In this document: positions 32,179-48,196 of the stretch, one piece after another
How positions within the stretch are numbered: position 1 is the first letter of the stretch
Layout of the letters: each line of letters begins with the position of its first letter
Assembly (NCBI RefSeq): GCF_017939705.1
Contig: NZ_JAGKSQ010000001.1
Span: forward strand, 124,001-188,000
Direction: 5' to 3'
Origin: Halalkalibacter suaedae
GTDB taxonomy: Bacteria; Bacillota; Bacilli; Bacillales; Bacillaceae_D
Length of the DNA stretch: 64,000 nucleotides
Made by a program: the position numbers and the translations under genes
The notes under the pieces: model-generated
The model's database searches: none
Told to the model about the DNA's origin: nothing
What the model saw: the letters and a program-made list of their open reading frames with translations, nothing else

Positions 32179-32258
32179 TTGTTTATGCACCCCTTTCTAC
32201 CAATTAACGAATGATATAGTTCATTCTATTAAACCAATCCGATTGATAGAACAAAAAA

Positions 32259-32322: not shown

Positions 32323-33087
32323 TTATTGGTCTTCTTTTACTCCATAGTACAATGGATTAGATTTATTACTAGGATCTTCATGATCATGTGTCGGTAAATC
32401 CTCCTGCAATTCAGAAAGTCCAGGCAAATAATAAGTAGAAACTTCGATTGTATATTGAAGGTCATCAACTGTCTGATCAAGCAAACGTACTTCCTGGTTC
32501 CCTGAAAATGTCAATTGATTAACAGTAGTAATTCGTTGAAGCTTCTCAATCTCCTTTAGAAACACCATCATCTCATCATAGCTAGGCGAAACAACAGTCA
32601 TTTGGGAAGTAATCTTTTCGATACCTTCTGGAGTTGGCACCTCTCCCTCATTAACCGCATCAGAATCAGTTACATCTGTTTGTTGTTCTTCCATTCTAGT
32701 ATCCATTTCTTCTTCCAATGTAGCGGCTTCATCTGATTCGAGACCTTCAAATGAACTCATTGAAAATTGATAATTTAAAATAAGACTTTCAGAAAGAATT
32801 TCCGACCTTTCTAAATCTAATAAGAACTGATCCAGAAGAGGTGCAACAGGTACCTGTTTTTGAAGACCAGTTGAATTTAACGTTGTAATTTGAGTTTCTC
32901 GTTTAGCTAGTTCAGACTCAACGGATGCTAAGAGCTGTTCCTCTGTTTCAAGCTGTTGTGTTGACCTATCCAACTCAAGCTTTAACGGCTTCACGTACGT
33001 ATAATAGAGGAAAAACGGTATCGCAATGAGTAATAATGTTATAAAAGCGATTAATAATCGCTTGACCCCTGGCTGTAATTCAACCAT
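32323..33087 (-). CDS. pilO: type IV pilus inner-membrane protein PilO-like
   Basis: The 254-residue protein has one N-terminal transmembrane helix (about 10-29), a coiled coil (about 33-68) and a late ferredoxin-like region (TSQMTVVSPSYDEMMVFLKEI split over about 160-180). These match PilO layout. Between them lies an acidic stretch (about 110-150) rich in Glu and Asp that typical PilO lacks. It should pair with PilN and link to PilM to form the alignment complex under the pilus machine. It overlaps pilN by 1 bp and ends the operon. Confidence 0.8.
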   Translation of the reverse strand: MVELQPGVKRLLIAFITLLLIAIPFFLYYTYVKPLKLELDRSTQQLETEEQLLASVESELAKRETQITTLNSTGLQKQVPVAPLLDQFLLDLERSEILSESLILNYQFSMSSFEGLESDEAATLEEEMDTRMEEQQTDVTDSDAVNEGEVPTPEGIEKITSQMTVVSPSYDEMMVFLKEIEKLQRITTVNQLTFSGNQEVRLLDQTVDDLQYTIEVSTYYLPGLSELQEDLPTHDHEDPSNKSNPLYYGVKEDQ

Positions 33088-33671
33088 TACTCATCTCCCT
33101 CCTCTTTCAGCAATTCTGCTACATTCAGTTTCACAGTGAAATCCGCTAGATAGCGAGGAAGGATCTCTTCCTCTGAATCTTCTACCTCTTCCATCTCTTC
33201 AGCTGTGATCGAAAGCAGATTCGCTTCTTCAATGAACGTGCTATCTGTTAGCTCAAACAAATAGGCTGACACTTCAGCAGGAGTATCAAATTGAATTGAA
33301 ATTTGAACAGTTCCTTCATCAACAAAAGTATAATTCATGAAATAACCACGCTCTGGCAGCTTTTCTACAAATCGAGAGAGAAGATCAGCACTTGACATTT
33401 TCTGTTTCTGAATCCAGTTAATTTGGCTCTCGATAACATCTATTGTCGATGCCTCTGGGGTTTCCTGTAGCTTCTGTTCTTGAATTCCGCGTAACTGCTC
33501 GGTCACTTGTATTGTTTCCTGTGTTGTCTGAAGTTCAGTTTTTAATGAATTGTAATGAAAGAAAAAGATAATTGAAGAAATAATTATAATAGCAAGAATC
33601 ACAAGAATGACAATAAGTGATGTGAGACTTCTCTCTTTTCTCTTAGGTAGTAAATTTATTTCAACAATCAT
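33087..33671 (-). CDS. pilN: type IV pilus assembly protein PilN-like
   Basis: The 194-residue protein starts MIVEINLLPKRKER. The N-terminal INLLP motif is the PilN signature that docks into PilM. A transmembrane helix (about 17-42) and a coiled coil (about 44-85) follow, then a compact external domain. It overlaps pilM by 4 bp and pilO by 1 bp, so the three are translated together. Confidence 0.85.
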   Translation of the reverse strand: MIVEINLLPKRKERSLTSLIVILVILAIIIISSIIFFFHYNSLKTELQTTQETIQVTEQLRGIQEQKLQETPEASTIDVIESQINWIQKQKMSSADLLSRFVEKLPERGYFMNYTFVDEGTVQISIQFDTPAEVSAYLFELTDSTFIEEANLLSITAEEMEEVEDSEEEILPRYLADFTVKLNVAELLKEEGDE

Positions 33672-34648
33672 TTCGGCACCTCTTTTAAAGCTAATCCCAT
33701 TGTCGTTAAATAACGAGGAGCAATTGAGAAACCCGCTTCATTAAACAGATCAGTAGCACTCTCGAGTTTAATTGGTAAGCTCTCATTCATCTGATTGTAG
33801 ATATGCTTGATGTAAGGGTGATCACCTGTTAAAACTAGATGAGAAACTTCGGCCTCACCTTTATGAAGCGAATATTTATAGAAATTCAGTATCCGTTCAA
33901 TTTCTCCAATGGTATCTTGTAAATCACTATATAAAATCATTTCATCCCCAGTAAAGTGGAGCTGAACCATTTCCTGACTTTCTTCAATTTCAAATTGCTC
34001 GACGTGTCCTGCATTAACAAGATGATGCACGTATTTAGGTTTATGCTGGTGAAAAATACTAACACCAACTGCATCGACATCAAATTCGATAAACATGAGA
34101 TGTTCTTTCGGATCAACCCGGTCAAGTGTAAATAACAGCCGGTACATTGCAAGAGCATTAATTTCAATTGAAACAGGATTGATTTTCGCTTCCTCCAGTA
34201 CACTTACGTATTCTTGAATGATTGGTTCTGGGGCAGCAAAGAGCAATATTTTCTTACCATTATCAACATTATCTAACGTCACATAATCAAAGAAAGGATT
34301 TGCAAACGGTAGTGGAATGCTATTACCAAGCTCCATGAACAAATACCCTTTTATTTCCTCCTTTTTTATAGAGGTTGGTATTGAAAGCTCCCGAAAGAAT
34401 ACATGAGCATCCGGAACAATAAAATGAACGTCCTTCCTCCGCAAGCCCCATTCGTCGACACATTCCTCTAAAATCATAACTAGACGGTCACGATCAATAA
34501 TTTTTCCATCTCGAATCACTCCAGTTGGCAAATACTTCTCACCAGAGGAGAGTGGATCAGTAATATCATTATGATTCATCATCGCATAGCGAATCACATG
34601 ATCTTTGATGATCAGGCTGACTGACTTTGATTTTTTAAATTTAAACAT
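33668..34648 (-). CDS. pilM: type IV pilus assembly ATPase-like protein PilM
   Basis: The start at 34648 (MFKFKKSKSVSLIIKDH) follows GGAGGAG five bases upstream. The 326-residue protein has the actin-like PilM/FtsA fold: an opening SLIIKDHVIRYAMM strand pair, VHFIVPDAHVFFRELSIP near residue 85, FIEFDVDAVGVSIFHQ near residue 200 and HLVLTGDHPYIKHI near residue 280. It is cytoplasmic and binds the INLLP tail of PilN. It begins 15 bp after pilD. Confidence 0.85.
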   Translation of the reverse strand: MFKFKKSKSVSLIIKDHVIRYAMMNHNDITDPLSSGEKYLPTGVIRDGKIIDRDRLVMILEECVDEWGLRRKDVHFIVPDAHVFFRELSIPTSIKKEEIKGYLFMELGNSIPLPFANPFFDYVTLDNVDNGKKILLFAAPEPIIQEYVSVLEEAKINPVSIEINALAMYRLLFTLDRVDPKEHLMFIEFDVDAVGVSIFHQHKPKYVHHLVNAGHVEQFEIEESQEMVQLHFTGDEMILYSDLQDTIGEIERILNFYKYSLHKGEAEVSHLVLTGDHPYIKHIYNQMNESLPIKLESATDLFNEAGFSIAPRYLTTMGLALKEVPK

Positions 34649-34662
34649 GTGTTCTCCTCCTT

Positions 34663-35415
34663 CTACAACTGATGCCAATACCAAGTAATTAAATCTTCAC
34701 CAACGAACAGGCTAACTAAGGCCCCGACCACGATAAAAGGTCCGAATGGAATCGGTTGTCCACGCTTTGCCTTTTTTAAGGCAATGGCAATAATCCCAAA
34801 AACCGCTCCAACAAACGAAGCAAAAAAGAGCGTTAACAAGGTAAGCTGCCAGCCAAGGACAAAGCCAAGAACAGCAAACAACTTAATATCGCCTCCACCC
34901 ATGCCCCCTTTACTGACAACAGCGATAAGGAACAACACCCCGAACCCTACCAATGCTCCAACGTAAGACTCCCACCATGGAACAGCTGGAAATACTAATC
35001 GGTAGATAAGGAAGCATCCTCCAAAAAAGAGCAATACCTTATCGGAAATAATCATATAAGCCAAATCAGAAACAAGAATAATCATAAGCAAGGAACAAAA
35101 TAACAAAAGTAATGGCAATTCCTTTGACCAGCCCACTGCTAAAAATGAGATCGTAAAAAGAGATGCCGTTGCAAGTTCAATTGCAGGGTATATCAAAGAA
35201 ACCGATGTCTTACACTTTCGACAACGACCACGTAAAAACAAATAAGAAAAAACAGGAATGAGTTCAAAAGCCTTTAACTGATGACCACAAGACGTGCAAT
35301 GAGACGGTGGTGCCACAATCGATTCACCTTTAGGAATACGAAGACCGACAACATTAAAGAAAGAGCCGAAGATGAGGCCGAAGATAAATACTATAACAAT
35401 GTAAATCATGTCCAT
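34663..35415 (-). CDS. pilD: prepilin peptidase PilD/ComC
   Basis: The 250-residue membrane protease (start taken at M4, 35415; 35424 is possible) has the zinc-binding pairs CTSC and CRKC (about residues 40-75). Its catalytic aspartates lie in VSDLAYMIISD and GMGGGDIKLF. It cleaves and N-methylates prepilins such as the three with clear prepilin motifs here. By position (next to spoIIB) it corresponds to comC of B. subtilis and may also serve the competence pseudopilus. Confidence 0.93.
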   Translation of the reverse strand: MDMIYIVIVFIFGLIFGSFFNVVGLRIPKGESIVAPPSHCTSCGHQLKAFELIPVFSYLFLRGRCRKCKTSVSLIYPAIELATASLFTISFLAVGWSKELPLLLLFCSLLMIILVSDLAYMIISDKVLLFFGGCFLIYRLVFPAVPWWESYVGALVGFGVLFLIAVVSKGGMGGGDIKLFAVLGFVLGWQLTLLTLFFASFVGAVFGIIAIALKKAKRGQPIPFGPFIVVGALVSLFVGEDLITWYWHQL

Positions 35416-35434
35416 GTTACCCATCCTTTTTGAA

Positions 35435-35509: not shown

Positions 35510-35959
35510 TCAGTCTGTGTTTTCTTCTCCTTCTTCAGCTACTTCTCCAGGTAGAGTTACATCCCCTCTAACTAATTGTGAAGCATCTTCAGTAGAACCA
35601 GTAATATAGTTCATCAATGTAACTCGGTATTCTCCATCGACCAAATTAACAGTCACAGCATCACCTGTATATGCATTATCAGTTGAAGGATCACTAATTA
35701 CTCCTAAGTAATCATTCTCTTGTAAGACAGTTAAAGTAACTGCGTTATCAGGGTCATTTTCTGTAGCAAAATATAATTTCGCTGCATTAGCAATCTGCTG
35801 AGCATTAGCCACGTGAGCATCTCGTCTTGAATTCTCCATAATATTCCCAATAGAAACAACCGCAATCGCCGCAATAATCCCAATAATAACAATAACGACT
35901 AAAAGTTCAATAAGTGTTAAACCACGTTCGTTCTTCATTACTTTCAATTTTTTAAACAT
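35510..35959 (-). CDS. major type IV pilin candidate
   Basis: The start at 35959 (MFKKLKVMKNERGLTLIELL) has GAGG nine bases upstream. The class III signal is cut after Gly in NERG-LTLIELLVV, leaving Leu1 and Glu5, followed by a hydrophobic helix VIVIIGIIAAIAVVSIGNI. The mature globular part is about 110 residues, cysteine-free and acidic at the C-terminus (EVAEEGEENTD). Its own -10 element and the hairpin after it suggest separate, strong expression, as for a major pilin. The gene is between pilC and pilD. Confidence 0.85.
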   Translation of the reverse strand: MFKKLKVMKNERGLTLIELLVVIVIIGIIAAIAVVSIGNIMENSRRDAHVANAQQIANAAKLYFATENDPDNAVTLTVLQENDYLGVISDPSTDNAYTGDAVTVNLVDGEYRVTLMNYITGSTEDASQLVRGDVTLPGEVAEEGEENTD

Positions 35960-36082
35960 CCATACATTCCTCACTTTTCGTTTTTTTTGGTTAAATAGCG
36001 ATGTTAACCTCATGATCAAAGACGTAGTCACTTACTCATAAATAACTAAATGAATACTGCTTTCATACCTAACCTTTTACCT

Positions 36083-36123: not shown

Positions 36124-37329
36124 TTAAATTTCCCCATAAATTTGAAACATTGGCACCATAATCGCAATGACAATAACGCCGACAACTCCGGCTAATAAAA
36201 CGATCATTAATGGCTCAATTAACGATTTTAGGCGGTCAGTAATGTTCTCGACTTCTTGTTCATAAAAATCGGCGACCTTTTCAAGCATTAGATCAAGTGA
36301 ACCGGTTTCTTCCCCAATTGAAATCATTTGAACGACAAGGGGTGGAAATACCCACGACTTTCGCATTGGCTCGGTTAACCTTTCACCATTTTCAAGAGCA
36401 TGACGCGATTGTTTCATAATTGCGGCAATTACTTCATTACCAACAACTTTCTCAACTATTTTTATCGCTTGTAAAATAGGGACAGAGCTTGAAAAAAGGG
36501 AACTAAGTGTTCGCGTCATTCTTGCCAATGCTGCAAGCTGTAGCAATTTTCCAAATATCGGCATCTTAAGAAGTACAAGATCTAAATAGTAGCGACTCTT
36601 TTTATTCTGCTTAATCATCTGTAGAGCAATGATAAATATAAGTACAATAACCAGTAAAACCCACCAATAAGATTGTAAAAAGTCACTAGAGTTTAAGACA
36701 AATAGAGTAATCGCTGGTAACTCTCCACCTAAACTTGAAAGCATGTTCGCGAATGTAGGAACAACCGTTGTTAGCAAAAAAATTACAACACCGATTGCAA
36801 TAATTCCTACAACGACTGGATAGGCGAGTGCGGAAATGACTTTTTGTTTCGTTTTATGCTGCTTCTCAAAATGAATCGCTAAACGGTCTAATGCTTCATC
36901 CATTGTCCCGCTCAATTCCCCTGCTTTGATCATATTAATCACAATCGGAGGAAAGATTCTTTTATGTTTAATAGCAGCTTCAGAAAAAGGAAGTCCTGAT
37001 CGAAGCTCTTCTTCAATCACTTCTAACGCTTTACGTAGTGCTTTACTACTCGTTTGTTTTGAAAGGATATTGGTTGATTCAACGATCGACACACCAGCTT
37101 TTAATAGTGTAGAAAACTGGCGTAAATAAATCGCAAAGTCTTGTAGTCTGACAGGATTTCCAAATGAAATCTCTTTATTTAATCCTGTTGCCTTTACCTC
37201 TTCTAGCTCTTGGACAGCAATATGGCGTTCTTTGAGTTTAATAGCTGCTTCTCGCTTGGATTGACTAACAACCGTTCCTTTTTTTACTTTTCCGGAGAGG
37301 TCTCGACCAGCATATTTGAATTGTGGCAT
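36124..37329 (-). CDS. pilC: type IV pilus inner-membrane platform protein PilC
   Basis: The 401-residue GspF/PilC-family protein starts [20 protein letters not shown], the standard opening. Two homologous cytoplasmic domains each hold the family phrase: FPPIVINMIKAGELSGTMDEAL and FPPLVVQMISIGEETGSLDLML. Three transmembrane helices lie near 170-190, 220-238 and 372-392. It transmits PilB/PilT motor action to the pilus base. It overlaps pilT by 1 bp. Confidence 0.95.
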   Translation of the reverse strand: MPQFKYAGRDLSGKVKKGTVVSQSKREAAIKLKERHIAVQELEEVKATGLNKEISFGNPVRLQDFAIYLRQFSTLLKAGVSIVESTNILSKQTSSKALRKALEVIEEELRSGLPFSEAAIKHKRIFPPIVINMIKAGELSGTMDEALDRLAIHFEKQHKTKQKVISALAYPVVVGIIAIGVVIFLLTTVVPTFANMLSSLGGELPAITLFVLNSSDFLQSYWWVLLVIVLIFIIALQMIKQNKKSRYYLDLVLLKMPIFGKLLQLAALARMTRTLSSLFSSSVPILQAIKIVEKVVGNEVIAAIMKQSRHALENGERLTEPMRKSWVFPPLVVQMISIGEETGSLDLMLEKVADFYEQEVENITDRLKSLIEPLMIVLLAGVVGVIVIAIMVPMFQIYGEI

Positions 37330-38369
37330 TAGTTACTCTCCTTTTGTAAATAAGGTTCAGCGATTTCTGCGGAGATCTTCTGCTGCTCGACCAATGTCTT
37401 GATTGACATATCTAATGTATGCATCCCGACCGACTTACTCGTTTGCATGACATTTTGAATCTGATAGATCTTTTCATTACGAATTAAATTCGCAACAGCC
37501 GAATTATTAATCAATACTTCTGTCGCAGCACATCGACCTTTACGATCTGTCGTTACAAACAAACGCTGCGAAACAACTGCCTTTAAGACACTTGCCAGCT
37601 GGATACGGATCTGGGCCTGTTGAATGGGTGGAAATACATCAATGATTCGATCAATTGTTGAAGGACCACTTGTTGTGTGCAATGTCCCTAAAACAAGATG
37701 GCCTGTCTCCGCTGCCGTAATCGCCGTTGAAATTGTTTCAAGGTCTCGCATTTCTCCAACCAAAATGACGTCTGGATCTTGCCTTAATGACGCTCTAAGA
37801 CCATTAACAAAATTATTCGTATCAAATCCAATTTCACGTTGATCAATAATACATTTTTGATGCTTATGCAAATATTCAATCGGATCTTCAAGCGTAATAA
37901 TATGGCGACTCATATGTTCATTCATATAATGAATAAGAGCTGCTAATGTCGTTGACTTCCCGCTACCAGTTGGTCCTGTAACTAGTACGAGTCCTTGTGG
38001 CAGCCCTGCAATCTTCTCTAAAATCGCAGGCATCTGCAGAGATTCTAATGTTGGAATCACCGTTGGAATGACACGAATTGCAAGACTCAAACATGATCGC
38101 TGGTAGAAGGCATTTATTCGAAATCGAGACACTTGAGCAATCCCATAAGAAAAGTCAACCTCACCATTTGACTCAAGCTTTGCTTTTTGACTATCATTTA
38201 ACAATGCCATCGCCATTCCTTCAGTATCCTCGGGGAGTAACTTATCTTTACCGTATCGTTTCAAATCACCATTTATCCGAAAAATGGGGGGGACACCAAC
38301 TGTAAGATGAATATCAGAGGCATTAAGCTGAAATGCAGCACGAAGTAAATGATCAATTCGTTCCTTCAT
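37329..38369 (-). CDS. pilT: pilus retraction ATPase PilT
   Basis: The 346-residue hexameric ATPase has ASDIHLTVGVPPIFRING at the N-terminus, Walker A GPTGSGKST at 132-140, the Asp box in ITLEDPIEYLH, Walker B DPDVILVGEMRD and the His box GHLVLGTLHT. A C-terminal AVANLIRNEKIYQI corresponds to the AIRNLIRE retraction motif, with differences. PilT removes pilin subunits and powers twitching; its presence argues for a true retractile pilus. It lies between pilB and pilC. Confidence 0.95.
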   Translation of the reverse strand: MKERIDHLLRAAFQLNASDIHLTVGVPPIFRINGDLKRYGKDKLLPEDTEGMAMALLNDSQKAKLESNGEVDFSYGIAQVSRFRINAFYQRSCLSLAIRVIPTVIPTLESLQMPAILEKIAGLPQGLVLVTGPTGSGKSTTLAALIHYMNEHMSRHIITLEDPIEYLHKHQKCIIDQREIGFDTNNFVNGLRASLRQDPDVILVGEMRDLETISTAITAAETGHLVLGTLHTTSGPSTIDRIIDVFPPIQQAQIRIQLASVLKAVVSQRLFVTTDRKGRCAATEVLINNSAVANLIRNEKIYQIQNVMQTSKSVGMHTLDMSIKTLVEQQKISAEIAEPYLQKESN

Positions 38370-38389
38370 CTATGACATACCTCCGTCCT

Positions 38390-40054
38390 TTAATCACTGG
38401 TCACGACACGTAATATTTCTTCAGTTGTTGACAATCCTTGTTTCACTTTTAATAATCCATCATCAATTAAAAAAATCGTGCCCGCTTTAATTGCATACTC
38501 CTTAATCTCACTTGAACTCCGGTTATTCATGATCATTTTCTTAATTGTTTCATCAATAACGAGAATTTCATGGATTGCGAGTCTTCCCTTATAGCCAGTC
38601 ATATTGCAAATCGGACAACCTTTCCCTCGAAACACGGTCGTTACCTTCATCCCACGTTTGGCAAAGATCATTTTCTCACGTTCTGTTGCTTCGACTTCTG
38701 CTTTGCAATCCCGACAGATGCGACGAACTAAACGTTGTGCGACTACTCCACTTAATGATGAAGCCACTAGAAACGGCTCAAGCCCCATATCAATAAGTCT
38801 TGTTACAGTACTAATTGAGTCGTTCGTATGAACCGTACTTAAGACTAAATGACCTGTTAATGAAGCTCGAACGGCAATTTCTGCAGTCTCAGCATCACGA
38901 ATCTCTCCGACCATTACAATGTCCGGGTCTTGTCTAAGAATGGCACGAAGTCCTGCTGCAAAAGTCATTCCTACCTTGGCATTCACTTGAATTTGATTAA
39001 TTCCTTCAAGCTGGTACTCGACCGGGTCCTCAACAGTAATAATATTTACTTCCTCAGCGTTAAGTCGGTTTAAACTCGCATATAGCGTCGAGGATTTCCC
39101 AGATCCAGTTGGACCTGTAATTAAAACGATGCCTGTTGGTTTCTCAATCATTTCGTTAAACCGCTTTATATGAATCTTATTAAATCCTAATTTATCAATA
39201 TCGTTAATAGAAGCTCCAAGGTCTAATATACGCATAACAACCTTTTCACCATAGACCGTTGGAAGAGTTGAGACACGTAGATCAACGGGATGGAATTCAA
39301 GGCTTACTTTAATCCTGCCATCCTGGGGAACACGACTTTCAGTAATATCTAAATTAGCCATAATTTTAATTCTCGCAATGAGAATATTTTGCATATGCTT
39401 TGGCAATATTCGTTCTGTTTTCAAAAGCCCATCAACGCGGTAGCGAATGAGTACTCTCGTTTCTTGAGTATCGATATGAATATCACTTGCTCGTTGCTGA
39501 ACAGCACGTAACAATAGCTGATTAACAAGCTTGACAATGGGTGCCTCTTCATTTGTTACTTCATCTTGTTCCTTTTCATTAATAACACCTAAATCATCCA
39601 ACAGCTCATCGACTGCATCATCATCTGTATCATAATATTTATGGGTTGTTCGAATGATATCGTCCTTTGTGGCAATGGCTACATCAATTTGGAAACCTGT
39701 TGATAGGCGCAACTCATCAATTGCATAGTAATCCATTGGATCTGCCATCGCAACAAGGAGCTTATCGCCTTCCTTTTTCAGCGGCATAATGAGGTTTCTC
39801 GTTGCCATTTCCTTTGGTATCATCTTAGTCACTTGCGGATCAATCGGATATCTGTATAAACTGACATGCGGAATTCCAAGCTGAAACTCAAGAACTTCAA
39901 TCAATTGCTGATCTGTGATAAAGCCTTGTTGAAGAATGGCATCACCAAGCTTTTGATTAGCTGACTTCTCAGCCAATGTTTGCTTCAGTTGCTTTTCCGA
40001 GATTAATCCAGATTCGACTAACAAATCACCTAATCGCTTCCTAGTCTTGGCCAT
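38390..40054 (-). CDS. pilB: pilus assembly ATPase PilB with MshEN domain
   Basis: The start at 40054 (MAKTRKRLGDLLV) is nine bases after AGAGG; an ATG two codons earlier is too close. The 554-residue ATPase opens with an MshEN domain: two 24-residue repeats, RLGDLLVESGLISEKQL and KLGDAILQQGFITDQQL, at about 7-30 and 35-58. The motor has ASDIHIDTQ, Walker A GPTGSGKSS (314-322), ITVEDPVEYQ, Walker B DPDIVMVGEIRD and GHLVLSTVHT, and a zinc site CRDC/CPIC. MshEN repeats bind c-di-GMP in known homologues. It extends the pilus. Confidence 0.95.
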   Translation of the reverse strand: MAKTRKRLGDLLVESGLISEKQLKQTLAEKSANQKLGDAILQQGFITDQQLIEVLEFQLGIPHVSLYRYPIDPQVTKMIPKEMATRNLIMPLKKEGDKLLVAMADPMDYYAIDELRLSTGFQIDVAIATKDDIIRTTHKYYDTDDDAVDELLDDLGVINEKEQDEVTNEEAPIVKLVNQLLLRAVQQRASDIHIDTQETRVLIRYRVDGLLKTERILPKHMQNILIARIKIMANLDITESRVPQDGRIKVSLEFHPVDLRVSTLPTVYGEKVVMRILDLGASINDIDKLGFNKIHIKRFNEMIEKPTGIVLITGPTGSGKSSTLYASLNRLNAEEVNIITVEDPVEYQLEGINQIQVNAKVGMTFAAGLRAILRQDPDIVMVGEIRDAETAEIAVRASLTGHLVLSTVHTNDSISTVTRLIDMGLEPFLVASSLSGVVAQRLVRRICRDCKAEVEATEREKMIFAKRGMKVTTVFRGKGCPICNMTGYKGRLAIHEILVIDETIKKMIMNNRSSSEIKEYAIKAGTIFLIDDGLLKVKQGLSTTEEILRVVTSD

Positions 40055-41381
40055 CTTCATTCACCTCTTCTTCTCCCTTGACAGGTTCTGTTTCATCATT
40101 TTCGACAATCGTTTCTAAGTCTGAATCTTGATCAATGTCTTGGCTCTCTTCACTCTCTAAACTTTCTTCGCTTTGATCATCACTTTGCTCGTTTGTATTA
40201 GTCAGCCCTGGAGAGGATCCGCTGACCTCTTGATCGAGTAAGCTTCTTTCAACAACGCGATGAATGGGACGATAGAAATCTTCTGTCACTAATTCGCGTT
40301 CAATCAATGATCCATTTCTGTCTATTTTCTTTCGATAGACACTAACGAAGTAGCCATCGCTTCCTTCAACTACTGTTCTACTTGATCCCTTTTGTACTTT
40401 GGCTGAGTATTGCAGTATTGTCCTCGGATGGATTGTTTTCTCATTTTCTAGTTCGGTTTCGTAAGTATGTTCTAAAGGAGGTCCTTTAATCATTATGACT
40501 AAGCGATTAGCTTCTAGCTCGAAGTTCAATGTATAGGTATTAAGAGTAGTATTAACAAAAACAAAATCATCGTCTTCATCTACAAGAACGTCGAAACCGA
40601 CTTTGGTATACTCAGGCTTTTCATTTCCAATCGATCGTTCAATAACATCAAAATCGGTTTGAAGAACCGCTTCATATAATACGGATGCGACAATGGAACG
40701 TGCAGTATCATTTTGTTCTGTCATTCCCATTTCTGTAAGAACACGATTCATTGAAAATGATTGCTCACCTTCTATCGAATAACCATCAAGCACTGTAACA
40801 ATTTGATGTATTCCCTCAAATATATCTGTTTCAATTGTCGCCGTTGCCACTGTTTCTGGGGCTAGGGCTGAATGAATTTTGTATTCTTTTAAATTAAATG
40901 ATAGATTCTTAAGTTGTAAATGGGCCACTTGCTCGGTGATATCAGCTATTAATTGCCTAGTATCAATCGTCTCTAATTGAACAGGTAGTGCTTCTACCGC
41001 TTCTAAGAAATAAGACTCATTGATCTTTGCAATTAACCCCTTTGTTGCTGCATCTTCTGCTAGTGAAACACTTTCCACGATGTTAAAGTCAATGGCTTGA
41101 TGTGACAAGATAACCTCATGTTCCGCATATTCCAACGTCACGGTTGTACCTTGCCGCCATAGCTCAACCTCTTCTTCAAGAACAGCTCGTGCCGACTCTG
41201 TAGTAAGTCCAGCTATACTTGTTGATGCAATAATGGTGTTCTCTTGGAACGTTTCCTCACCTACTATAAGCTGAAGAATGAAGGATGCCACCATTGTGAA
41301 AAGTAGAACACCGAACAGACTGCTCCCTAACAAGATGAGTGTCTTACCATAATTTAATTTAGTTTGTTGTTGAACACTCAT
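40041..41381 (-). CDS. VanW/G5-like surface protein of the pilus locus
   Basis: The 446-residue protein has one N-terminal transmembrane helix (about 15-38). A region of YoaR-like repeat (ASTSIAGLTTESARAVLEEE) and a VanW-like domain (about 215-295: FSMNRVLTEMG, ASVLYEAVLQTDFDVIERS) follow. A G5-like segment (about 320-385) and a very acidic tail complete it. The GGGICQ-type loop of typical VanW is missing. Its 3' end overlaps pilB, so it belongs to the pilus operon. It may act in the wall or at the membrane as a guide or anchor; this is inference. Confidence 0.7.
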   Translation of the reverse strand: MSVQQQTKLNYGKTLILLGSSLFGVLLFTMVASFILQLIVGEETFQENTIIASTSIAGLTTESARAVLEEEVELWRQGTTVTLEYAEHEVILSHQAIDFNIVESVSLAEDAATKGLIAKINESYFLEAVEALPVQLETIDTRQLIADITEQVAHLQLKNLSFNLKEYKIHSALAPETVATATIETDIFEGIHQIVTVLDGYSIEGEQSFSMNRVLTEMGMTEQNDTARSIVASVLYEAVLQTDFDVIERSIGNEKPEYTKVGFDVLVDEDDDFVFVNTTLNTYTLNFELEANRLVIMIKGPPLEHTYETELENEKTIHPRTILQYSAKVQKGSSRTVVEGSDGYFVSVYRKKIDRNGSLIERELVTEDFYRPIHRVVERSLLDQEVSGSSPGLTNTNEQSDDQSEESLESEESQDIDQDSDLETIVENDETEPVKGEEEVNEDGQD

Positions 41382-41399
41382 TTGAACAGCCCCTTATTA

Positions 41400-42128
41400 T
41401 TACTCAACGCTCATTGATAGTTGGATGAATGCTGCTTGACTGTTAGATTGAACCGCCTTAATAACTTCTTCAGTTAAGACGTCTCCTTCACTTACTAATA
41501 ATTCACCATCTACACCATGGATATTGTCAGTTACTATTTTCCCTTTTAATAGCTCAATTTGTTTTTGGATTACTTCATCATGTTCAACGCTATCTTCCAT
41601 CTCCGGTACAGCTACTTCTCTACTCGAAAGATCTGTTGTTTGTCCCAGACTCTTCGTAAATTGATTCAAACTATCTTCATGAACAATTAACATCTCTTTA
41701 CCAATCGTCACCACATTTTCAAACGACAATATCGCATCTTCGCGATTATTCAATTCAATAGCTGCTAACCTGCCATTTTCGTCATCCACATAAAATTCGA
41801 CGACCTCTTCTAATAACTCACCTTTTCGAGTCATCACTTTATTACCAATCATTTTGATATTTCGATTTACTAGTGTATTAGCAATAGGAATTTCAGTTAA
41901 ATCAATAATATTGTTCTCATGTTCGATTGTTACAGCATAGTCACCTACACCAATAATTTTTTTGAACGGAACAGCCTTCATCGTCACTTGCCAATTCTCA
42001 TTTTGAACTGTTAAAAAGTCAACAGTCTTATTTTCTGGATTGATAATTAACGTCTTAACCGTACCAACTGTTTGCCCGTCCTGAATACTAATTAATGGTA
42101 GTCCGATAATCTCCACACTTTTCTTCAT
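41400..42128 (-). CDS. protein with two PRC-barrel domains
   Basis: The 242-residue protein has two small beta-barrel repeats: the first starts IIGLPLISIQDGQTVGTVKT (residues 8-27) and the second MIGNKVMTRKGELLEEVVEF (about 93-112). Such PRC-barrels bind proteins or RNA and also occur in sporulation and photosynthesis proteins. The C-terminal third is acidic and helical. No signal peptide or membrane segment is seen. It lies between an acidic membrane protein and the VanW-like gene, 18 bp from the latter, so it is probably a cytoplasmic accessory of the pilus operon. Confidence 0.75.
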   Translation of the reverse strand: MKKSVEIIGLPLISIQDGQTVGTVKTLIINPENKTVDFLTVQNENWQVTMKAVPFKKIIGVGDYAVTIEHENNIIDLTEIPIANTLVNRNIKMIGNKVMTRKGELLEEVVEFYVDDENGRLAAIELNNREDAILSFENVVTIGKEMLIVHEDSLNQFTKSLGQTTDLSSREVAVPEMEDSVEHDEVIQKQIELLKGKIVTDNIHGVDGELLVSEGDVLTEEVIKAVQSNSQAAFIQLSMSVE

Positions 42129-42161
42129 CTTCTCTACTCCTTCAACGTTTCACTCAAAACG

Positions 42162-43469
42162 TTATTGAATTTGGTTTAAATAATAATTGATCTCTTCAAG
42201 CAACACAGGTTGATGTACATAGCGTTCTCTCAAATCGAGCATAAGATTCTTCAGTTTTACATAATCCTGCTGACTAATGTATAAATCACGAAGCAATGAT
42301 GCAAATAGGTAGTAATCACGCGGATGTAATTTATTTTGAAGATTCCCTAGAAGAGTTTGCTCATACAATTCTTCACCGTTCTGCTTTTTAATCCAAGTTA
42401 ATTCCTTTAGCACAAGTGACAATATGCCCGAATCCATTCGCTTTCCTTCAGCTTCCGTTCCATTAGATAAAGAGCTCTTATCAATATCTGTCTCATCTGC
42501 TGTTGCTGTATCCTCTAGCTTCTCGGGTGCTTCATTTGGTCTTGTTTCAACACGTACATCAGAATCAGTTTCTTCATTCTTTAATTCTTCAAGCACTTCT
42601 GTCTCTTCTTCAGTTGCATCAACTGTCTCATCATTTACTAAATCATCGATTTCTTCAAATGTAACTTGATTTGGATTAATGACATTTTCTTCACTTTTTT
42701 CTTCTGTTTCGACAACATTTTTCGCAATTGTTGGAACATCAATCGAGAGTGGAATACCTTCTTGTTCTTCCTTTAATAAGATCCCTTCATCTTCGACCTC
42801 AGCAAATAATTGTTCGCGATTTTCAAACAGTTGTTCATCTTCAGAATCACCACCATCAGTTAAATCAACAACCTCTCTCTTCTTAGGTACTTCTCTCTTT
42901 CTTAGCAGAAAGTCAAATTCATCTTCAGATTCGGAGTCTTCCTCGAAGGAGTTGGATACTTCATTGATCTCATCTTCAACTAATTCTTCAGTTATATCTT
43001 CTTTAGGAATCTCAGCTAAATGATCCAGAACAGGAATTTCACTAGTAAGATCGAGATTCACTTCTTCTTGAAGAAATGTTTCTTCTTCCAACTCCTCCAA
43101 TTCTATGTCGTGGTGTTCAGCCTCCACTTCCACTTCATCAATGTAATTCACTTCAACTTCATTTTCGATCTTCTCATCTTTTACAGTCTCATGCCTTTCG
43201 ATCTGTGAAAATCCTACATCATCAGTTTGATTTTCCTGCACTAGGATGACTCTAGTAAAAAACAAATAAGCTGTTAAAGGTAAGAGAGTACAAACAGCAA
43301 AAATCGCTACCCATGTTGAACCTAGGTTGACTAAAGCTAAATACAGTAAAGTCAATAGTAGTGTGTTCAGGATAACGATATACCTGGCCTTCTTCGTTAA
43401 CGCAACAGGTAAGAGAGGCAATATAAAGTACAAAACTAAAGCTCCTACAAATGGAAAAATATAGATCAT
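42162..43469 (-). CDS. acidic membrane protein of unknown function, pilus locus
   Basis: I recognise no family for this 435-residue protein. It has three hydrophobic helices at the N-terminus (about 2-22, 30-50 and 53-72). A very long acidic, low-complexity stretch (about 78-340) rich in Glu, Asp, Val and Ser follows. A C-terminal helical domain of some 90 residues (ILSLVLKELTWIKKQNGEEL onwards) could be TPR-like. It is the first gene of the minus-strand pilus operon (33 bp before the PRC-barrel gene) and diverges from the minor-pilin operon. A membrane-bound scaffold is possible. Confidence 0.7.
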   Translation of the reverse strand: MIYIFPFVGALVLYFILPLLPVALTKKARYIVILNTLLLTLLYLALVNLGSTWVAIFAVCTLLPLTAYLFFTRVILVQENQTDDVGFSQIERHETVKDEKIENEVEVNYIDEVEVEAEHHDIELEELEEETFLQEEVNLDLTSEIPVLDHLAEIPKEDITEELVEDEINEVSNSFEEDSESEDEFDFLLRKREVPKKREVVDLTDGGDSEDEQLFENREQLFAEVEDEGILLKEEQEGIPLSIDVPTIAKNVVETEEKSEENVINPNQVTFEEIDDLVNDETVDATEEETEVLEELKNEETDSDVRVETRPNEAPEKLEDTATADETDIDKSSLSNGTEAEGKRMDSGILSLVLKELTWIKKQNGEELYEQTLLGNLQNKLHPRDYYLFASLLRDLYISQQDYVKLKNLMLDLRERYVHQPVLLEEINYYLNQIQ

Positions 43470-43627
43470 TTTAACTACCTCATTTTTATATTCTCAATTG
43501 CACGATAAACGATGCGTCTTTTTCCTTATATAGTGTATAATAAATGACAATAGATTAAAAGAAAAGACTAATTTGTAACCCATTAGAACTAGTTCCTTAT
43601 TTAGGGAAATGTTAGGAGAGAATTTCT

Positions 43628-44092
43628 TTGCGTAGAGCGAAATTTCATAAAGATCAAAAAGGTTTTACATTAGTGGAAATTCTGGTCTCATTAGTATTAT
43701 TATCCATTGTACTACTAAGTTTTTTAACGATATTCACCTATACAAATCAAGTCGCCGTCCGTAATAACGACACATTAGTCGCCGTAAATCTCGCAAAACT
43801 CACTCTAGCAAGACTTAAATCTGATCCATTTTCATATATTGAGTCACCTAATCTCTCTCCTTCACCTTCATACGTCCTAGGAACAAAAGCATATAATCAT
43901 AGCTCTTGTACAAATGAAACATGTGAGTCTTTCTATCAACCACTTGTTAATGATCGTGTTTACGCAGTTTCAATTACAGCAAGTCAATCAACTTCCGAGA
44001 AAACAAATCATTTAATTAATGTTCATGTAACAGTCACTCTTCCAGAGACACCAATATCTAGTAAAGTAGAGGGCTATGTCATCTATGATTAA
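43628..44092 (+). CDS. minor pilin, PilV/PulG-like
   Basis: A TTG start with AGGAGAG seven bases upstream opens a 154-residue prepilin. The cleavage motif is DQKG-FTLVEILVS with Glu5 and a hydrophobic helix SLVLLSIVLLSFLTIF. The globular part has a cysteine pair in SSCTNETCESF. It is the first gene of a plus-strand operon of three pilin-like genes and overlaps the next. The layout matches minor-pilin priming complexes of other type IV pilus systems. Confidence 0.85.
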   Translation: MRRAKFHKDQKGFTLVEILVSLVLLSIVLLSFLTIFTYTNQVAVRNNDTLVAVNLAKLTLARLKSDPFSYIESPNLSPSPSYVLGTKAYNHSSCTNETCESFYQPLVNDRVYAVSITASQSTSEKTNHLINVHVTVTLPETPISSKVEGYVIYD

Positions 44093-44594
44093 AAACCTAC
44101 AATCACAAAGAGGGATTACACTTATTGAGATATTAGTAACGTTAGTATTAATCACCCTCATAACAATTCTAGCAGCGAGCATGTTAACTAATGGACTAAA
44201 AACGGCTGAGAGAGTTAAGGTTGAAGCCGAAATTAGGGATGAAGCTGATTACTTGATGGTTCAGCTACTCAATGAATTGTATTTACTTAAGACAAGTGAA
44301 ATCCAATCCAAACAACTTCAAGACCCTGCAAATCCCTCACACTCCTATTTAGTAGTACGGAAGACGGGAAGCAGCACAAATCACCAACTCGGCTTGGCAG
44401 ATGGAAAGGTTCTACTTGAATCAGCAACCCTCGAGCCAAGTAGTGATGACATCCTACTTGAACCCGAATCACAAATTAAAGAAATAAAACAGGGGCATTA
44501 TCAAATCACATTAGTATTAAAATCAACAGTAAATAATAGGGAACTCGAATTAACGACGGAAGTTCAGATCATTACTGATAAGGAGGGTGAATAA
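44085..44594 (+). CDS. minor pilin, PilW/PulJ-like
   Basis: The start at 44085 (MIKNLQSQRGITLIEIL) is inside the end of the previous gene; 44076 is the alternative. The 169-residue prepilin has the motif SQRG-ITLIEILVT with Glu5 and helix VTLVLITLITILAASML. The globular domain has no cysteines. It overlaps the next gene by 1 bp. It is presumably a member of the pilus tip or priming complex. Confidence 0.82.
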   Translation: MIKNLQSQRGITLIEILVTLVLITLITILAASMLTNGLKTAERVKVEAEIRDEADYLMVQLLNELYLLKTSEIQSKQLQDPANPSHSYLVVRKTGSSTNHQLGLADGKVLLESATLEPSSDDILLEPESQIKEIKQGHYQITLVLKSTVNNRELELTTEVQIITDKEGE

Positions 44595-46414
44595 TGAAAT
44601 ATCTTAATGAGCGAGGTTATTCACTCCTTTTAACACTCGTTATTACACTCATTTTTGGATTACTTGCGACATTATTACTCTCAATGACAATGGGCGGCTT
44701 CCTACGAACAGAAATTAGAGAAGATGTTGTCCAAGTTGAGGAAGTTACGGAAAAAGGGTTAGACCATTTAAGCCAAGAAATACAAACGAAGCTAGAGGAA
44801 ATGATTGGTACCTCCGGAATACCAAGAGAGCAATTTATTACAAAATTAAATGAAACACTAAACAACTATACATGTACGAGTAGTAAGCTTGAAAACAGTG
44901 GCGAAACAGGAGACTATTCCGCGTGCCTCTCAGCGATTGAACCAGTCACAAACGCAGACGGAACTGAGAATGAATTACGAAAGAAAATCACTTTATTGAG
45001 TAGAGGTATAGTTGATGGGCGAGAAAGAGAACTTAAGACAACTATGGAGGTTGGATCTCAATCTGTGCCGGATGCGTTAAATTATGCGTTAGGGGCACAT
45101 ATCCTATGTAAAAGTAATGATTCTTCTTGCTCCCAAATACCAGGTGAAGGAAACATGTTTTTGCACGGTGGTGTGGATATTTATGGAGATGTAAAAGTAG
45201 ATGGAGATTTAATAACAACGGATCGGGGTTACGCTTTTTTTAGCGGCAGTGAGCAATGGATCGATTCACTTTATCCAAGTATCCGTGGAACTAAGCCTTC
45301 TCAAATAGGTAATGTCGTTTTGGGTGGAAATGTTTACTCATTTAATTCAACTCCAACATATGCGAATCATATAAGACGTAACTCATTCTCATCTACTTAT
45401 ACAAAAAAAACTAACTCATTACAAGATGCCTTTACCATAGCTCCACAGATCGTTGCACGACAACCAACACGAAAAACCCATAACATTTTAGAGCAAAAGA
45501 AAAATAATGAATATGCTTATAATGATCCCGGAGTAACATATTTATCGGGAAGTCATAATGTTACTACCTCTGGGTTACATTATCCTAACAGACGAGTGTT
45601 TATCGGTTATGGATATGGATGGTACGGTACAGAAATTCGTGGCTTAACTTTGACTGGAACCAATACATTTGGGAACCTTTTTGTAAATGGTGATTTAAAG
45701 CTGACAAGTTCAAATTCGAGGGAAACAAGCAAGGCAACCTTCCTAAACGGATTATTTGTTGATGGAGACTTGACGATTGGAAACAACTCATCAAGTTATG
45801 ACCCAAGTAATTACGCAAAAATACAATTATTCGGAAATATCTATGTAACAGGTGATTTAATCATCAAAGGAGCAGACGCCGAAGTGGACGCCATTATTAA
45901 TGTAGGAGGTAAAGTCATTGATGAAAGTACAAAGGTTGAAAGATGGAGTAATACCCTCGTAGAACATTCAAGGTTAGCAGGGCTTCCTAAAGGGGAAAAA
46001 GAAATTGGTTCGTTAATTGTTTTCTCAAAAGGAACAATAACAATCCGTAATAATAGTGTATATCAAGATGATCCAAGTGAAATTAAAGGTTATTTCTATT
46101 CTGATGATGCATTTGAAATGTTCGGGGTAGGATCTAACATTAAAATTATTGGAGGAATATCAGCACGAAGAATTGTGCTAAATGGAGTAAGAGGAATGTC
46201 AGACACTAGCTCTTTTCCTAATTCTGTTCGATATGGCAATAGAAATGATTGGTATTATTACCATAACAGGACAGCCCAGACAAAACAAAATTCACGTCTT
46301 CAAGTCATATATAATGAAAAAATCGACAAGATTTACTCAGACTTACAAGCAAATGAACCAATCATTACTTCAATCGATAAACCAAAACTGTTAAATCGTG
46401 AAGTGGTCGAATAA
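44594..46414 (+). CDS. large PilX-like minor pilin with repetitive exodomain
   Basis: The 606-residue protein opens NERGYSLLLTLVITLIFGLL, a prepilin-like segment whose fifth residue after Gly is Leu, not Glu. Such loss of Glu5 is seen in GspK/PilX-type tip subunits. Residues 70-160 are helical and polar. From about 185 on, repeated short strands (GGVDIYGDVKVDGDL, GNLFVNGDLKL, LFVDGDLTI, GNIYVTGDLII) suggest a beta-helix or polymer-forming fold, like adhesins or bactofilin. Four cysteines (two near 95-110, two near 173-180) could form disulphides. It is probably a pilus tip or adhesin protein. Confidence 0.75.
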   Translation: MKYLNERGYSLLLTLVITLIFGLLATLLLSMTMGGFLRTEIREDVVQVEEVTEKGLDHLSQEIQTKLEEMIGTSGIPREQFITKLNETLNNYTCTSSKLENSGETGDYSACLSAIEPVTNADGTENELRKKITLLSRGIVDGRERELKTTMEVGSQSVPDALNYALGAHILCKSNDSSCSQIPGEGNMFLHGGVDIYGDVKVDGDLITTDRGYAFFSGSEQWIDSLYPSIRGTKPSQIGNVVLGGNVYSFNSTPTYANHIRRNSFSSTYTKKTNSLQDAFTIAPQIVARQPTRKTHNILEQKKNNEYAYNDPGVTYLSGSHNVTTSGLHYPNRRVFIGYGYGWYGTEIRGLTLTGTNTFGNLFVNGDLKLTSSNSRETSKATFLNGLFVDGDLTIGNNSSSYDPSNYAKIQLFGNIYVTGDLIIKGADAEVDAIINVGGKVIDESTKVERWSNTLVEHSRLAGLPKGEKEIGSLIVFSKGTITIRNNSVYQDDPSEIKGYFYSDDAFEMFGVGSNIKIIGGISARRIVLNGVRGMSDTSSFPNSVRYGNRNDWYYYHNRTAQTKQNSRLQVIYNEKIDKIYSDLQANEPIITSIDKPKLLNREVVE

Positions 46415-46459: not shown

Positions 46460-48196
46460 TTAAATTAGCTCTTCAATTATAGATTCAGCTTCCTTAACAG
46501 AATAATAAGTCGCCACCCGGTCACGGCCCTTCTGTTTCGCTCCGTTATACATCGCACGATCCGCTTTACGAATTAGAGTTACCGCATCACTCTTCTCATC
46601 CTCTTCCGCAGTTTCAGAGCTTGCCACTCCAATACTCGCTGTCACATTAATTCTAGCAGTGACATGCGACGATAGATCTTGTCTAACAAAAAAGGGGGAT
46701 TCCTTTAGAACAGCTTGAATTCTTAGCCCTACTTGATAAGCCTCATCGACTGTTGTATTAGGAAGCAGTAAGACAAATTCCTCCCCGCCATACCTGGCAA
46801 CAGTCACCCCTTGTCTAACCGTTCCGACTAACCGGTTCGCGACTTCAATCAGCACTTCATTGCCGCTTTGATGACCATATGTATCGTTAATTCTCTTGAA
46901 ATGATCCAGATCTAACAAAATAAGTGAAGCAATCTGATCTTTTTTCTCAAGTGTTTCATGAAGGACTTTTTCAAAATATCTATAATTATATAAACCTGTA
47001 AGTGGACAATGATAGCTTTGCTTACGACTTTTCTCTAATTGCTTTACATTTGAAAGGGCGATCGACAGCATATTGGCGATAATTTCCACCACCATCACTT
47101 GCTGTTGGAGAAAGGCTTTTTGCTTTGATGAAGCAATGGTTAAAACCCCTTTCACCGTTTGCTGAGACTTTAATGGAACAGATATTATTGTTTCAAGATG
47201 ATTCGGTAGATTCGCACCTAGTGATAACCATTGTTGACGCATATCTGCCATTTCTATTTTTTCGCTTTTGATGACCAGCTTACTAAAGGCATCACCATAT
47301 TTTAATGTCAAAGGCACAGCTTCCTCACCTTTTTGGTGCATATAGCTTAGCGATAACTTCTCCTCGCCTACTCGATATAAATATAGTTGATCCCATTCCA
47401 AAAATAGCTCCAGTCGTTTACAAACCCTATTCATCAACTCTTGCTCTGTCATACTAGAATTGAGTTCATAACCAACGTTTGTCACTTCCTTCAACAGATC
47501 GTTCATTCGTTCCGTACGTGTGTAAGCTCTAAGAAAAAAAGATGATACAAAAAACACAATTCCTGTAAAGACAACGGCTAGGATTCCAATCTCCCAAAAT
47601 AAAACGACAAGGATCAACGCCGTTGGTAGAAGGACACAGCCAATAATCAGCTCACGCTTCAATCCTTTGACTACATTTTGATTTTGAATGATGAACACAT
47701 ATCTTTTCACAGTAAAAATAAGAAGATGATTCACGAAATGAAACGTTAGTGCATACAGCAAAATTGCATGCCCATGTAGTAAGAAAGAAAACGACTCACC
47801 CGTTTGACCTCCGACAATATAGAAGGCTAGTGCTGAAGTACTAGATGTTATAAAAAAAATTAAAGAGTTGATTGGAATACGATAAAGGGTTGAGCGATTT
47901 AATCCTGATGCAATTAATGCAGCTACTACACCAATTTGAGTCGTTACAACCTCAACTCCAAAACCAAATACGATGAATATAGCAATGGCTAACCATTGAA
48001 ATAATGTTAGATTATGATTGCGATAATAGATTGGAAACATTGCAGTTACTATAACTAAAAGTAGGAATGATAGCACTTCTAAAGATATAAATGCAGAAAA
48101 AACCTCCACTTGTCCAAGTGCAAACAAAAAAAGAGTGAACACAACTAACCAGCCTGACCATATCCATTTATTCTTTTGTGCTGACAATCTGTCCAC
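46460..48196 (-). CDS. membrane GAF-GGDEF diguanylate cyclase
   Basis: The 578-residue protein has about seven transmembrane helices (residues 12-230), a GAF-like sensor domain (about 245-395) and a GGDEF domain (about 405-570). The active site reads RYGGEEF (GGEEF at 470-474) with metal/substrate Asp in LILLDLDHFKRIND. The I-site RxxD is replaced by RQGV, so product inhibition is probably absent. It should make c-di-GMP from two GTP. It lies between folC and the pilus locus, close to a PilB with a c-di-GMP-type domain. Confidence 0.92.
   Translation of the reverse strand: MDRLSAQKNKWIWSGWLVVFTLFLFALGQVEVFSAFISLEVLSFLLLVIVTAMFPIYYRNHNLTLFQWLAIAIFIVFGFGVEVVTTQIGVVAALIASGLNRSTLYRIPINSLIFFITSSTSALAFYIVGGQTGESFSFLLHGHAILLYALTFHFVNHLLIFTVKRYVFIIQNQNVVKGLKRELIIGCVLLPTALILVVLFWEIGILAVVFTGIVFFVSSFFLRAYTRTERMNDLLKEVTNVGYELNSSMTEQELMNRVCKRLELFLEWDQLYLYRVGEEKLSLSYMHQKGEEAVPLTLKYGDAFSKLVIKSEKIEMADMRQQWLSLGANLPNHLETIISVPLKSQQTVKGVLTIASSKQKAFLQQQVMVVEIIANMLSIALSNVKQLEKSRKQSYHCPLTGLYNYRYFEKVLHETLEKKDQIASLILLDLDHFKRINDTYGHQSGNEVLIEVANRLVGTVRQGVTVARYGGEEFVLLLPNTTVDEAYQVGLRIQAVLKESPFFVRQDLSSHVTARINVTASIGVASSETAEEDEKSDAVTLIRKADRAMYNGAKQKGRDRVATYYSVKEAESIIEELI

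Follow-up and report, generated by a model that had tools for sequence, protein, structure and literature searches.

The type IVa pilus operon of Halalkalibacter suaedae (genome of 4.32 Mb in 30 contigs) lies in a window of 64,000 nt (contig NZ_JAGKSQ010000001.1, positions 124,001 to 188,000). It is headed by three accessory genes on the minus strand, which the list of open reading frames (ORFs) places in the order TM3ac, PRC and VanW/G5, followed by pilB. These genes belong to the regular inventory of a large subgroup of Bacilli pilus operons. The VanW/G5 protein is, judged by its sequence, a catalytically dead relative of a wall enzyme of the L,D-transpeptidase family. TM3ac, an acidic membrane protein with three helices, and the PRC-barrel protein travel as a pair apart from VanW, and the three genes are not one unit. 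The explanation that we prefer, with about even confidence, is that their products make up two sub-modules, a non-catalytic wall part and a cytoplasmic hub, of a type IVa pilus machine in monoderms.

The full minus-strand order is TM3ac, PRC, VanW/G5, pilB, pilT, pilC, pilA, pilD, pilM, pilN, pilO, a SpoIIB-like gene, maf and radC. A first-pass annotation of this DNA had placed an acidic three-helix protein, a double PRC-barrel protein and a VanW/G5 protein before pilB with short gaps and one overlap. The ORFs, the Pfam matches and the AlphaFold models bore this out, and the position at the head of a pilus operon was confirmed by pilB to pilO coming next. TM3ac and PRC are separated by 33 bp and PRC and VanW/G5 by 18 bp, and VanW/G5 overlaps pilB by 20 bp. 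A plausible ribosome-binding site was read directly in the sequence at the start of each of the three genes. The type IVa set of pilB, pilT, pilC, pilin, pilD and pilMNO is present together in the window (pilD and pilM by eye; pilO under the Pfam cut-off). No ORF listed in this stretch was recognized as the secretin PilQ; the search for secretins did not extend to the remainder of the genome. A promoter and terminator scan of positions 37000-44000 gave 20 promoter-like and 3 terminator-like sites, equal to those in shuffled sequences (20.2 and 3.5).

The linkage of VanW/G5 to pilB was followed in three samples, of 100 related genomes, 200 genomes of the class and 249 genomes of the phylum. Among the relatives, VanW/G5 matches were found in 52 and a near full-length PilB (E below about 1e-150, a cut of our own) in 61. 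Both were present in 49 genomes, PilB alone in 12, VanW alone in 3 and neither in 36; the counted genomes are related to each other, and the Fisher value for this co-occurrence is no strict probability. In all 49, VanW preceded pilB on one contig and in the same orientation, at a distance of ≤500 bp in 42 and of 1.0-2.5 kb in 7, where pilin-like or unassigned genes lie in between. The relatives with VanW and no pilB still have it adjoining pil genes, from pilD onward in L103, from pilM onward in L105 and from pilC onward in L104. The homologues of VanW/G5 and TM3ac, therefore, are not mostly away from pilus genes: 49 of the 52 VanW/G5 genes stand upstream of pilB, and TM3 stands beside VanW.

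PilB matches (E ≤ 1e-120) were present in 106 of the 200 class genomes, and 56 of these, from 13 families, had VanW/G5 immediately upstream in the same orientation (at no more than 1 kb in 55). Among the 62 best VanW rows of the class, pilB was absent alongside only in G502, G361, G413 and G447. In the phylum sample, VanW/G5-type proteins were found in at least 187 of the 249 genomes and were common in Clostridia, and adjacency to pilB was rare. Among the matches listed, 98 phylum genomes had both genes, and VanW adjoined pilB only in the window's own genome and in G267; the other same-contig pairs among these matches were at least 3.5 kb apart. Because the adjacency is frequent in the class and rare across the phylum, the tight linkage is a feature of Bacilli.

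The median gaps were 26 bp between TM3 and PRC, 17 bp between PRC and VanW, and 21 bp between VanW and pilB, and the same gene order occurred in Parageobacillus, Geobacillus, Heyndrickxia coagulans and Bacillus methanolicus. The three proteins had been described as non-standard pilus components. This is correct for the textbook set of pilus proteins, but not for the large Bacilli subgroup, of which they are regular parts. A literature search by title found, among the titles listed, no work tying VanW or PRC-barrel proteins to type IV pili, subscription papers being mostly outside its scope. In the parts of the main texts available to us (supplements and figures outside the scope), VanW and PRC were unmentioned in PMC3244431, VanW, PRC-barrel and G5 domain in PMC9765702, and VanW and G5 domain in PMC6958937.

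Pfam called VanW (1.7e-7) and G5 (2.4e-6) in the window's VanW/G5 protein, both above cut-off, and the VanW match covered just the second half of the model (positions 61-128). The protein starts with an N-in membrane helix (residues 8-39), followed by a PG4-like region, a VanW-like domain (about 201-303), the G5 domain (304-383) and an acidic, disordered C-terminus (384-446). Its AlphaFold model had a mean pLDDT of 86, with confident domains to about residue 383. In structure searches only the G5 part stood out (best Foldseek E 1.2e-6; VIA G5 rows up to Z 5.8, root-mean-square deviation (rmsd) 2.5, 76 residues), and it matched the G5 structures of SasG, Aap and IgA1 protease. A likeness of residues 177-303 to ribosomal protein L22 (Z 7.3, rmsd 3.6, 82 residues) was taken as a common arrangement and rejected. 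Across the pilus VanW proteins, VanW (PF04294) was called in 71/71 and G5 in 61/71; PG_binding_4 was not called by Pfam in these proteins.

In 2024, VanW proteins of Clostridioides difficile were recognized as L,D-transpeptidases, having a triad of Cys, His and a small residue (PMC12729407; also PMC11986978). Some VanW proteins show no L,D-transpeptidase activity (PMC12729407). The VanW-type L,D-transpeptidases (LdtCd4/LdtCd5) and the free-standing PG4-VanW-G5 proteins share with the pilus protein the order of membrane anchor, PG4-like region, VanW and G5, and the alignment behind this likeness is to the free-standing proteins.

For this alignment, 20 free-standing homologues from Clostridia and other Bacilli were chosen by position from the listed rows and then read. 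The pilus family matched them over the extracellular length (hhalign probability 100, E 5.6e-44, 349 columns). The motifs GGG[IV]CQ and ER..H were kept in 20/20, and of 10 homologues scanned all had VanW and G5 and 8 had PG_binding_4, one of these just under cut-off. In contrast, the pilus proteins lacked the catalytic Cys at the aligned column without exception (0/49 and 0/71), its place being taken by Ser, Asn, Asp, Gly, Thr or another residue. The segment before this place, with GGG[IV]CQ, was missing in 49/49 and 71/71. The catalytic His, assumed to be that of the conserved ER..H, was present at its column in only 2/49 and 1/71. The Cys was also found in 29/29 canonical VanW sequences, which is by construction, as these were picked by the Cys-containing motif. 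Besides these losses, the pilus proteins differ from the transpeptidases in being encoded directly before pilB. The VanW/G5 protein most likely binds peptidoglycan, neither cutting nor linking it, as far as can be read from its domains. Since it keeps the domains expected to hold peptidoglycan and loses catalysis, the simplest reading would make it a clamp or guide at the base of the pilus.

TM3ac had no accepted Pfam family, and scanning 69 TM3 proteins against Pfam and NCBIfam gave just scattered chance matches. Its AlphaFold model showed helices at 4-19, 26-49 and 52-84, a disordered middle, and a confident five-helix domain at the C-terminus (347-434). Residues 86-346 contained 36% D+E versus 8% K+R. 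Per TM3 sequence, K/R numbered 2.4-2.5 in loop 1, 0.37 in loop 2 and about 2 after helix 3. Because loop 1 is positive and loop 2 is not, the positive-inside rule predicts an outside N-terminus and a cytoplasmic tail. The C-terminal domain weakly resembled TPR proteins in VIA (best rows Z 8-10, about 80-90 residues).

Because the loci used to train the TM3N and TM3C profiles were of the kind counted, the test was repeated with an independent profile built only from 78 named PRC-bearing loci. This gave 44 matches at E < 1e-3 among 1283 proteins, none at any other place: the gene next to VanW on its upstream side at 27 of the 36 VanW loci without PRC, a displaced copy in L072, and 16 PRC-bearing loci. 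Three more genes upstream of VanW scored E 0.0016-0.0041. In the class sample, every TM3 match at E < 1e-15 adjoined a VanW match; three matches near E 1e-4, all to long ORFs in a single genus, were regarded as chance. At more distant loci the gene before PRC, read by eye, encodes membrane helices and an acidic stretch and was missed by the profile. TM3ac thus represents a family without a name, whose genes lie almost exclusively right before VanW/G5.

The window's PRC protein matched PRC in Pfam (8.3e-12, 2 stretches), and PF05239 was found in 16/16 PRC proteins. It is 75% identical to its counterpart in Halalkalibacter wakoensis, the nearest named relative in the scan. It has no apparent membrane helix or signal peptide and is predicted to be cytoplasmic. 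The nearest solved relatives by sequence were archaeal PRC-barrel structures (E 0.03-0.2). The PRC-barrel fold is also common to YlmC/YmxH (E 0.007) and YrrD-type proteins. The window protein differs from these and from the archaeal proteins in its tandem barrels, its conserved C-terminal segment of about 55 residues, and its pairing with TM3ac. This segment (window 41403-41570) resembled a piece of RNA polymerase beta at E 0.1-0.3, and it is perhaps a third small barrel.

The pairing was tight. In 64 loci, PRC and the TM3 C-terminal domain were both present in 16 and both absent in 48, and neither occurred alone. The PRC label required 9 changes on a tree of 60 PilB rows, 4 of them forced by supported branches; the TM3 C-terminal domain agreed with PRC in 4/4 independent pairs on supported branches, fewer than six pairs being unable to reach significance. 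Further loci were the 80 named PRC loci, which are the best 80 of 118 and biased to near relatives; L119, L133 and L158 were read by eye, and L134 was kept outside the tallies of named loci because its PRC is fused. TM3 with its C-terminal domain was directly upstream of PRC in 77; the remainder were one with a spurious small ORF in between, one contig end and one fusion. The fusion, in Peribacillus glennii (L134), is an in-frame TM3ac-PRC protein of 767 aa. VanW was directly downstream of PRC in 74/80 (L134 included), and the TM3ac-PRC pair was inside a pil gene cluster in 79/80. In six loci (L130, L140, L143, L158, L178 and L179) the pair had moved to between pilO and the SpoIIB-like gene; VanW remained before pilB in five of these, and L130 is cut there.

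For the topology, wall binding, partners and function of the accessory proteins, we infer the following. VanW/G5 would be a membrane-anchored extracellular pseudoenzyme, descended from an L,D-transpeptidase-type protein with PG4, VanW and G5 domains, that binds peptidoglycan without catalysis and thereby tethers the PilMNO/PilC base to the wall. There it may hold a passage or take the retraction load, as LysM proteins or GspB/OutB do in Gram-negatives. TM3ac and PRC would form a membrane-attached cytoplasmic hub, in which the C-terminal helical domain of TM3ac holds PRC. The acidic tail may gather clients, PilB/PilT and perhaps the neighboring diguanylate cyclase, much like FimV/HubP. The first-pass annotation had offered a wall guide or a regulatory scaffold for the three proteins. 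The wall guide suits VanW/G5, with its single N-terminal membrane helix followed by extracellular PG4-like, VanW-like and G5 domains, and the regulatory scaffold suits TM3ac and PRC, but a wall guide for all three was rejected on the predicted topology.

The likeness to FimV/HubP lies in the membrane region, the long acidic cytoplasmic part, a weakly TPR-like C-terminal domain and the link to type IV pili; TM3ac has three helices, and the likeness seen is one of layout. FimV is described as a membrane region, an acidic cytoplasmic part and a C-terminal TPR domain (PMC12918733), and that of Pseudomonas aeruginosa binds a diguanylate cyclase and peptidoglycan (PMC7033161). TM3ac has no periplasmic LysM (short non-cytoplasmic segments only, and no Pfam LysM), and unlike in FimV, the peptidoglycan-binding part would sit in a separate protein, VanW/G5. 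No FimV model was among the 25/37 NCBIfam families listed for the 69 TM3 proteins scanned. As the TPR likeness is weak, we describe TM3ac as working like FimV, not as a FimV member. VanW/G5 resembles GspB/OutB of type II secretion by description only: OutB is an inner-membrane protein of a pilus-like machine tied to peptidoglycan. Unlike VanW/G5, it is covalently attached and works with a secretin (PMC12274547).

We also considered, tentatively and as less probable than the two sub-modules, a dedicated trans-envelope module with which many Bacilli would build type IV pili across the wall, and in which a dead L,D-transpeptidase-family protein, recruited as a peptidoglycan clamp or guide, is joined to a split FimV-like hub that gathers the c-di-GMP-responsive PilB motor and the cyclase. 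The clamp would then stand functionally for the secretin-side wall anchors and be coupled to the hub via the pilus base.

Several observations weigh against the two-sub-module explanation. No adjacent VanW/G5 was present at 12/61 pilB loci of the relatives and 50/106 of the class. Monoderm pili in general, therefore, do not require it, and with about half of the Bacilli pilus loci lacking VanW and adjacency rare in the phylum, a universal monoderm pilus component was ruled out. The same 50 class genomes, and the predicted cytoplasmic location of the TM3ac tail and PRC, speak against the earlier proposal that all three proteins replace outer-membrane parts. TM3 was undetectable at 5/52 VanW loci, and the TM3ac-PRC fusion was found in a single genome only. 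The TPR-like match is weak, as Z 8-10 is common for helical bundles, and the C-terminal domain had no Foldseek match at E ≤ 0.001. Class PRC matches at E ≤ 1e-47 occurred in 19 genomes and were near pilB in 8. In four others (G350, G361, G389 and G430) PRC was beside VanW without pilB, and the VanW of G389 and G430 is short. All three genes are retained in G350 and G361 with no pilB adjoining, and these two have pilB elsewhere in the genome; G350 (= L184) has a second TM3-VanW beside pilB about 306 kb away. The remaining 7, of one family, had neither VanW nor pilB beside PRC, and 3/7 had no PilB match (E ≤ 1e-120). Neighborhoods in this family were read in L221 and L227 and taken from match places in three, and the ORF caller did not resolve L220 and L222. 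The conserved co-occurrence with pilus genes, proposed as a check at first pass, thus held for VanW/G5 and TM3ac, but was breached for PRC by the strong homologues of this family. L218 and L219 each carry, at a distance from pilB, a TM-acidic gene together with PRC and a VanW-like protein of only 225-226 aa; elsewhere, the same genomes have VanW beside pilB as well.

These PRC homologues bear on a rival for the pair, that TM3ac and PRC serve as a membrane scaffold of general use, in cell division, polarity or the envelope, and only happen to lie among the pilus genes. One family has a TM-acidic and PRC pair with no pilus gene nearby, some of its genomes lacking pilB, and the nearest solved PRC structures are archaeal. 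We consider this unlikely, given the pair's place within the pil cluster in nearly all named loci and the occurrence of TM3 essentially only beside VanW/G5. That the genes are chance hitch-hikers linked to the operon without a mechanistic role is very improbable: TM3 does evolve very fast (16% mean column identity) and loci without the accessory genes exist, but the arrangement is conserved repeatedly over many families, and the 9 PRC changes are matched by the TM3 C-terminal domain, which moves with PRC as a unit.

For VanW/G5, a regulatory pseudoenzyme of wall stress or maturation, which would recruit or modulate peptidoglycan enzymes (or the SpoIIB-like product) for local wall opening during pilus assembly, also appears unlikely. 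Pseudoenzymes often regulate active relatives, the same genome has a protein with a full-length VanW domain (G000:C22), and the SpoIIB-like gene ends the operon in most loci. But no wall hydrolase was recognized in the examined part of the operon, and the present data do not tell structural from regulatory binding. Extracellular adhesion deserves mention as a further point against the two sub-modules, because G5 domains also occur in adhesins. The protein would then be an adhesin or biofilm protein co-expressed with the pilus, making G5 contacts as in SasG/Aap, whose structures its G5 domain matches. This is rather improbable for a short, membrane-anchored protein with one G5 that is homologous over its extracellular part to PG4-VanW-G5 wall proteins and is tightly conserved directly before pilB.

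Table 1. Genes of the pilus region in the window.
Feature	Position	Strand	Description and support
TM3ac, 435 aa	42162..43469	-	membrane anchor, acidic tail, C-terminal helical domain; unnamed family
PRC protein, 242 aa	41400..42128	-	double PRC-barrel; Pfam
VanW/G5 protein, 446 aa	40041..41381	-	Pfam VanW and G5
pilB	38390..40060	-	extension ATPase, MshEN domain with N-terminal cyclic di-GMP (c-di-GMP)-binding motif; Pfam, NCBIfam NF053729 above cut-off
pilT	37329..38369	-	retraction ATPase; NCBIfam/Pfam support
pilC	36124..37329	-	platform protein; NCBIfam/Pfam support
pilA	35510..36031	-	major-pilin-like, N-methylation motif; Pfam
pilD	34663..35424	-	prepilin peptidase-like; translation by eye, operon place conserved
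pilM-like	33668..34684	-	by eye and operon place
pilN	33087..33671	-	PF05137 above cut-off
pilO-like	32323..33087	-	PF04350 E 0.0027, under cut-off
SpoIIB-like ORF	31159-32190	-	ends pilus operon before maf
Three divergent minor-pilin-like genes	43628-44092, 44076-44594, 44594-46414	+	Pfam/NCBIfam
Membrane GAF-GGDEF diguanylate cyclase	46460..48196	-	Pfam/NCBIfam

The close GAF-GGDEF gene, together with the MshEN domain and c-di-GMP-binding motif of PilB above cut-off, makes control of the pilus by c-di-GMP likely, and the cyclase is a possible source of the c-di-GMP read by PilB. GGDEF homologues were seen in 19/52 VanW stretches versus 2/12 others, the stretches being cut at 20 kb.

Near the divergent minor pilins, relatives encode a VWA-domain protein of 970-1380 aa (L107:2769-5681 and L128:800-4936; Pfam VWA 7e-17 and 2.8e-22). 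It is a candidate pilus-tip adhesin of the PilY1 kind. At the other end, most relatives have a match to the window's SpoIIB-like ORF as the last gene of the operon, ahead of maf. In Bacillus subtilis, spoIIB and comC occupy this place; for this reason, the two may be remnants of a pilus operon that has been lost. The same family also has another type of pilus operon (L089, L092, L095, L098 and L100), with the order pilA-pilD-minor pilins-pilM-N-O-pilB-T-C-spoIIB; it has no VanW, PRC or TM3.

A conserved accessory module in a large subgroup of Bacilli type IV pili, not universal, is confirmed by these observations. To our knowledge, how a retractable pilus crosses and pulls against the thick Gram-positive wall is still open. 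The conserved wall-binding candidate and the hub pair, encoded with the motor, offer three gene targets in culturable, non-pathogenic hosts with this gene order, such as Parageobacillus, Geobacillus, Heyndrickxia coagulans and Bacillus methanolicus. The role of VanW proteins without transpeptidase activity is listed as unknown in a 2025 review (PMC12729407), and the present finding offers one. If the trans-envelope reading is true, VanW proteins that are catalytically dead would gain a role, and the monoderm type IVa pilus a named component for passage through the wall. The accessory proteins may thus reveal how a retractable pilus operates across a thick wall.

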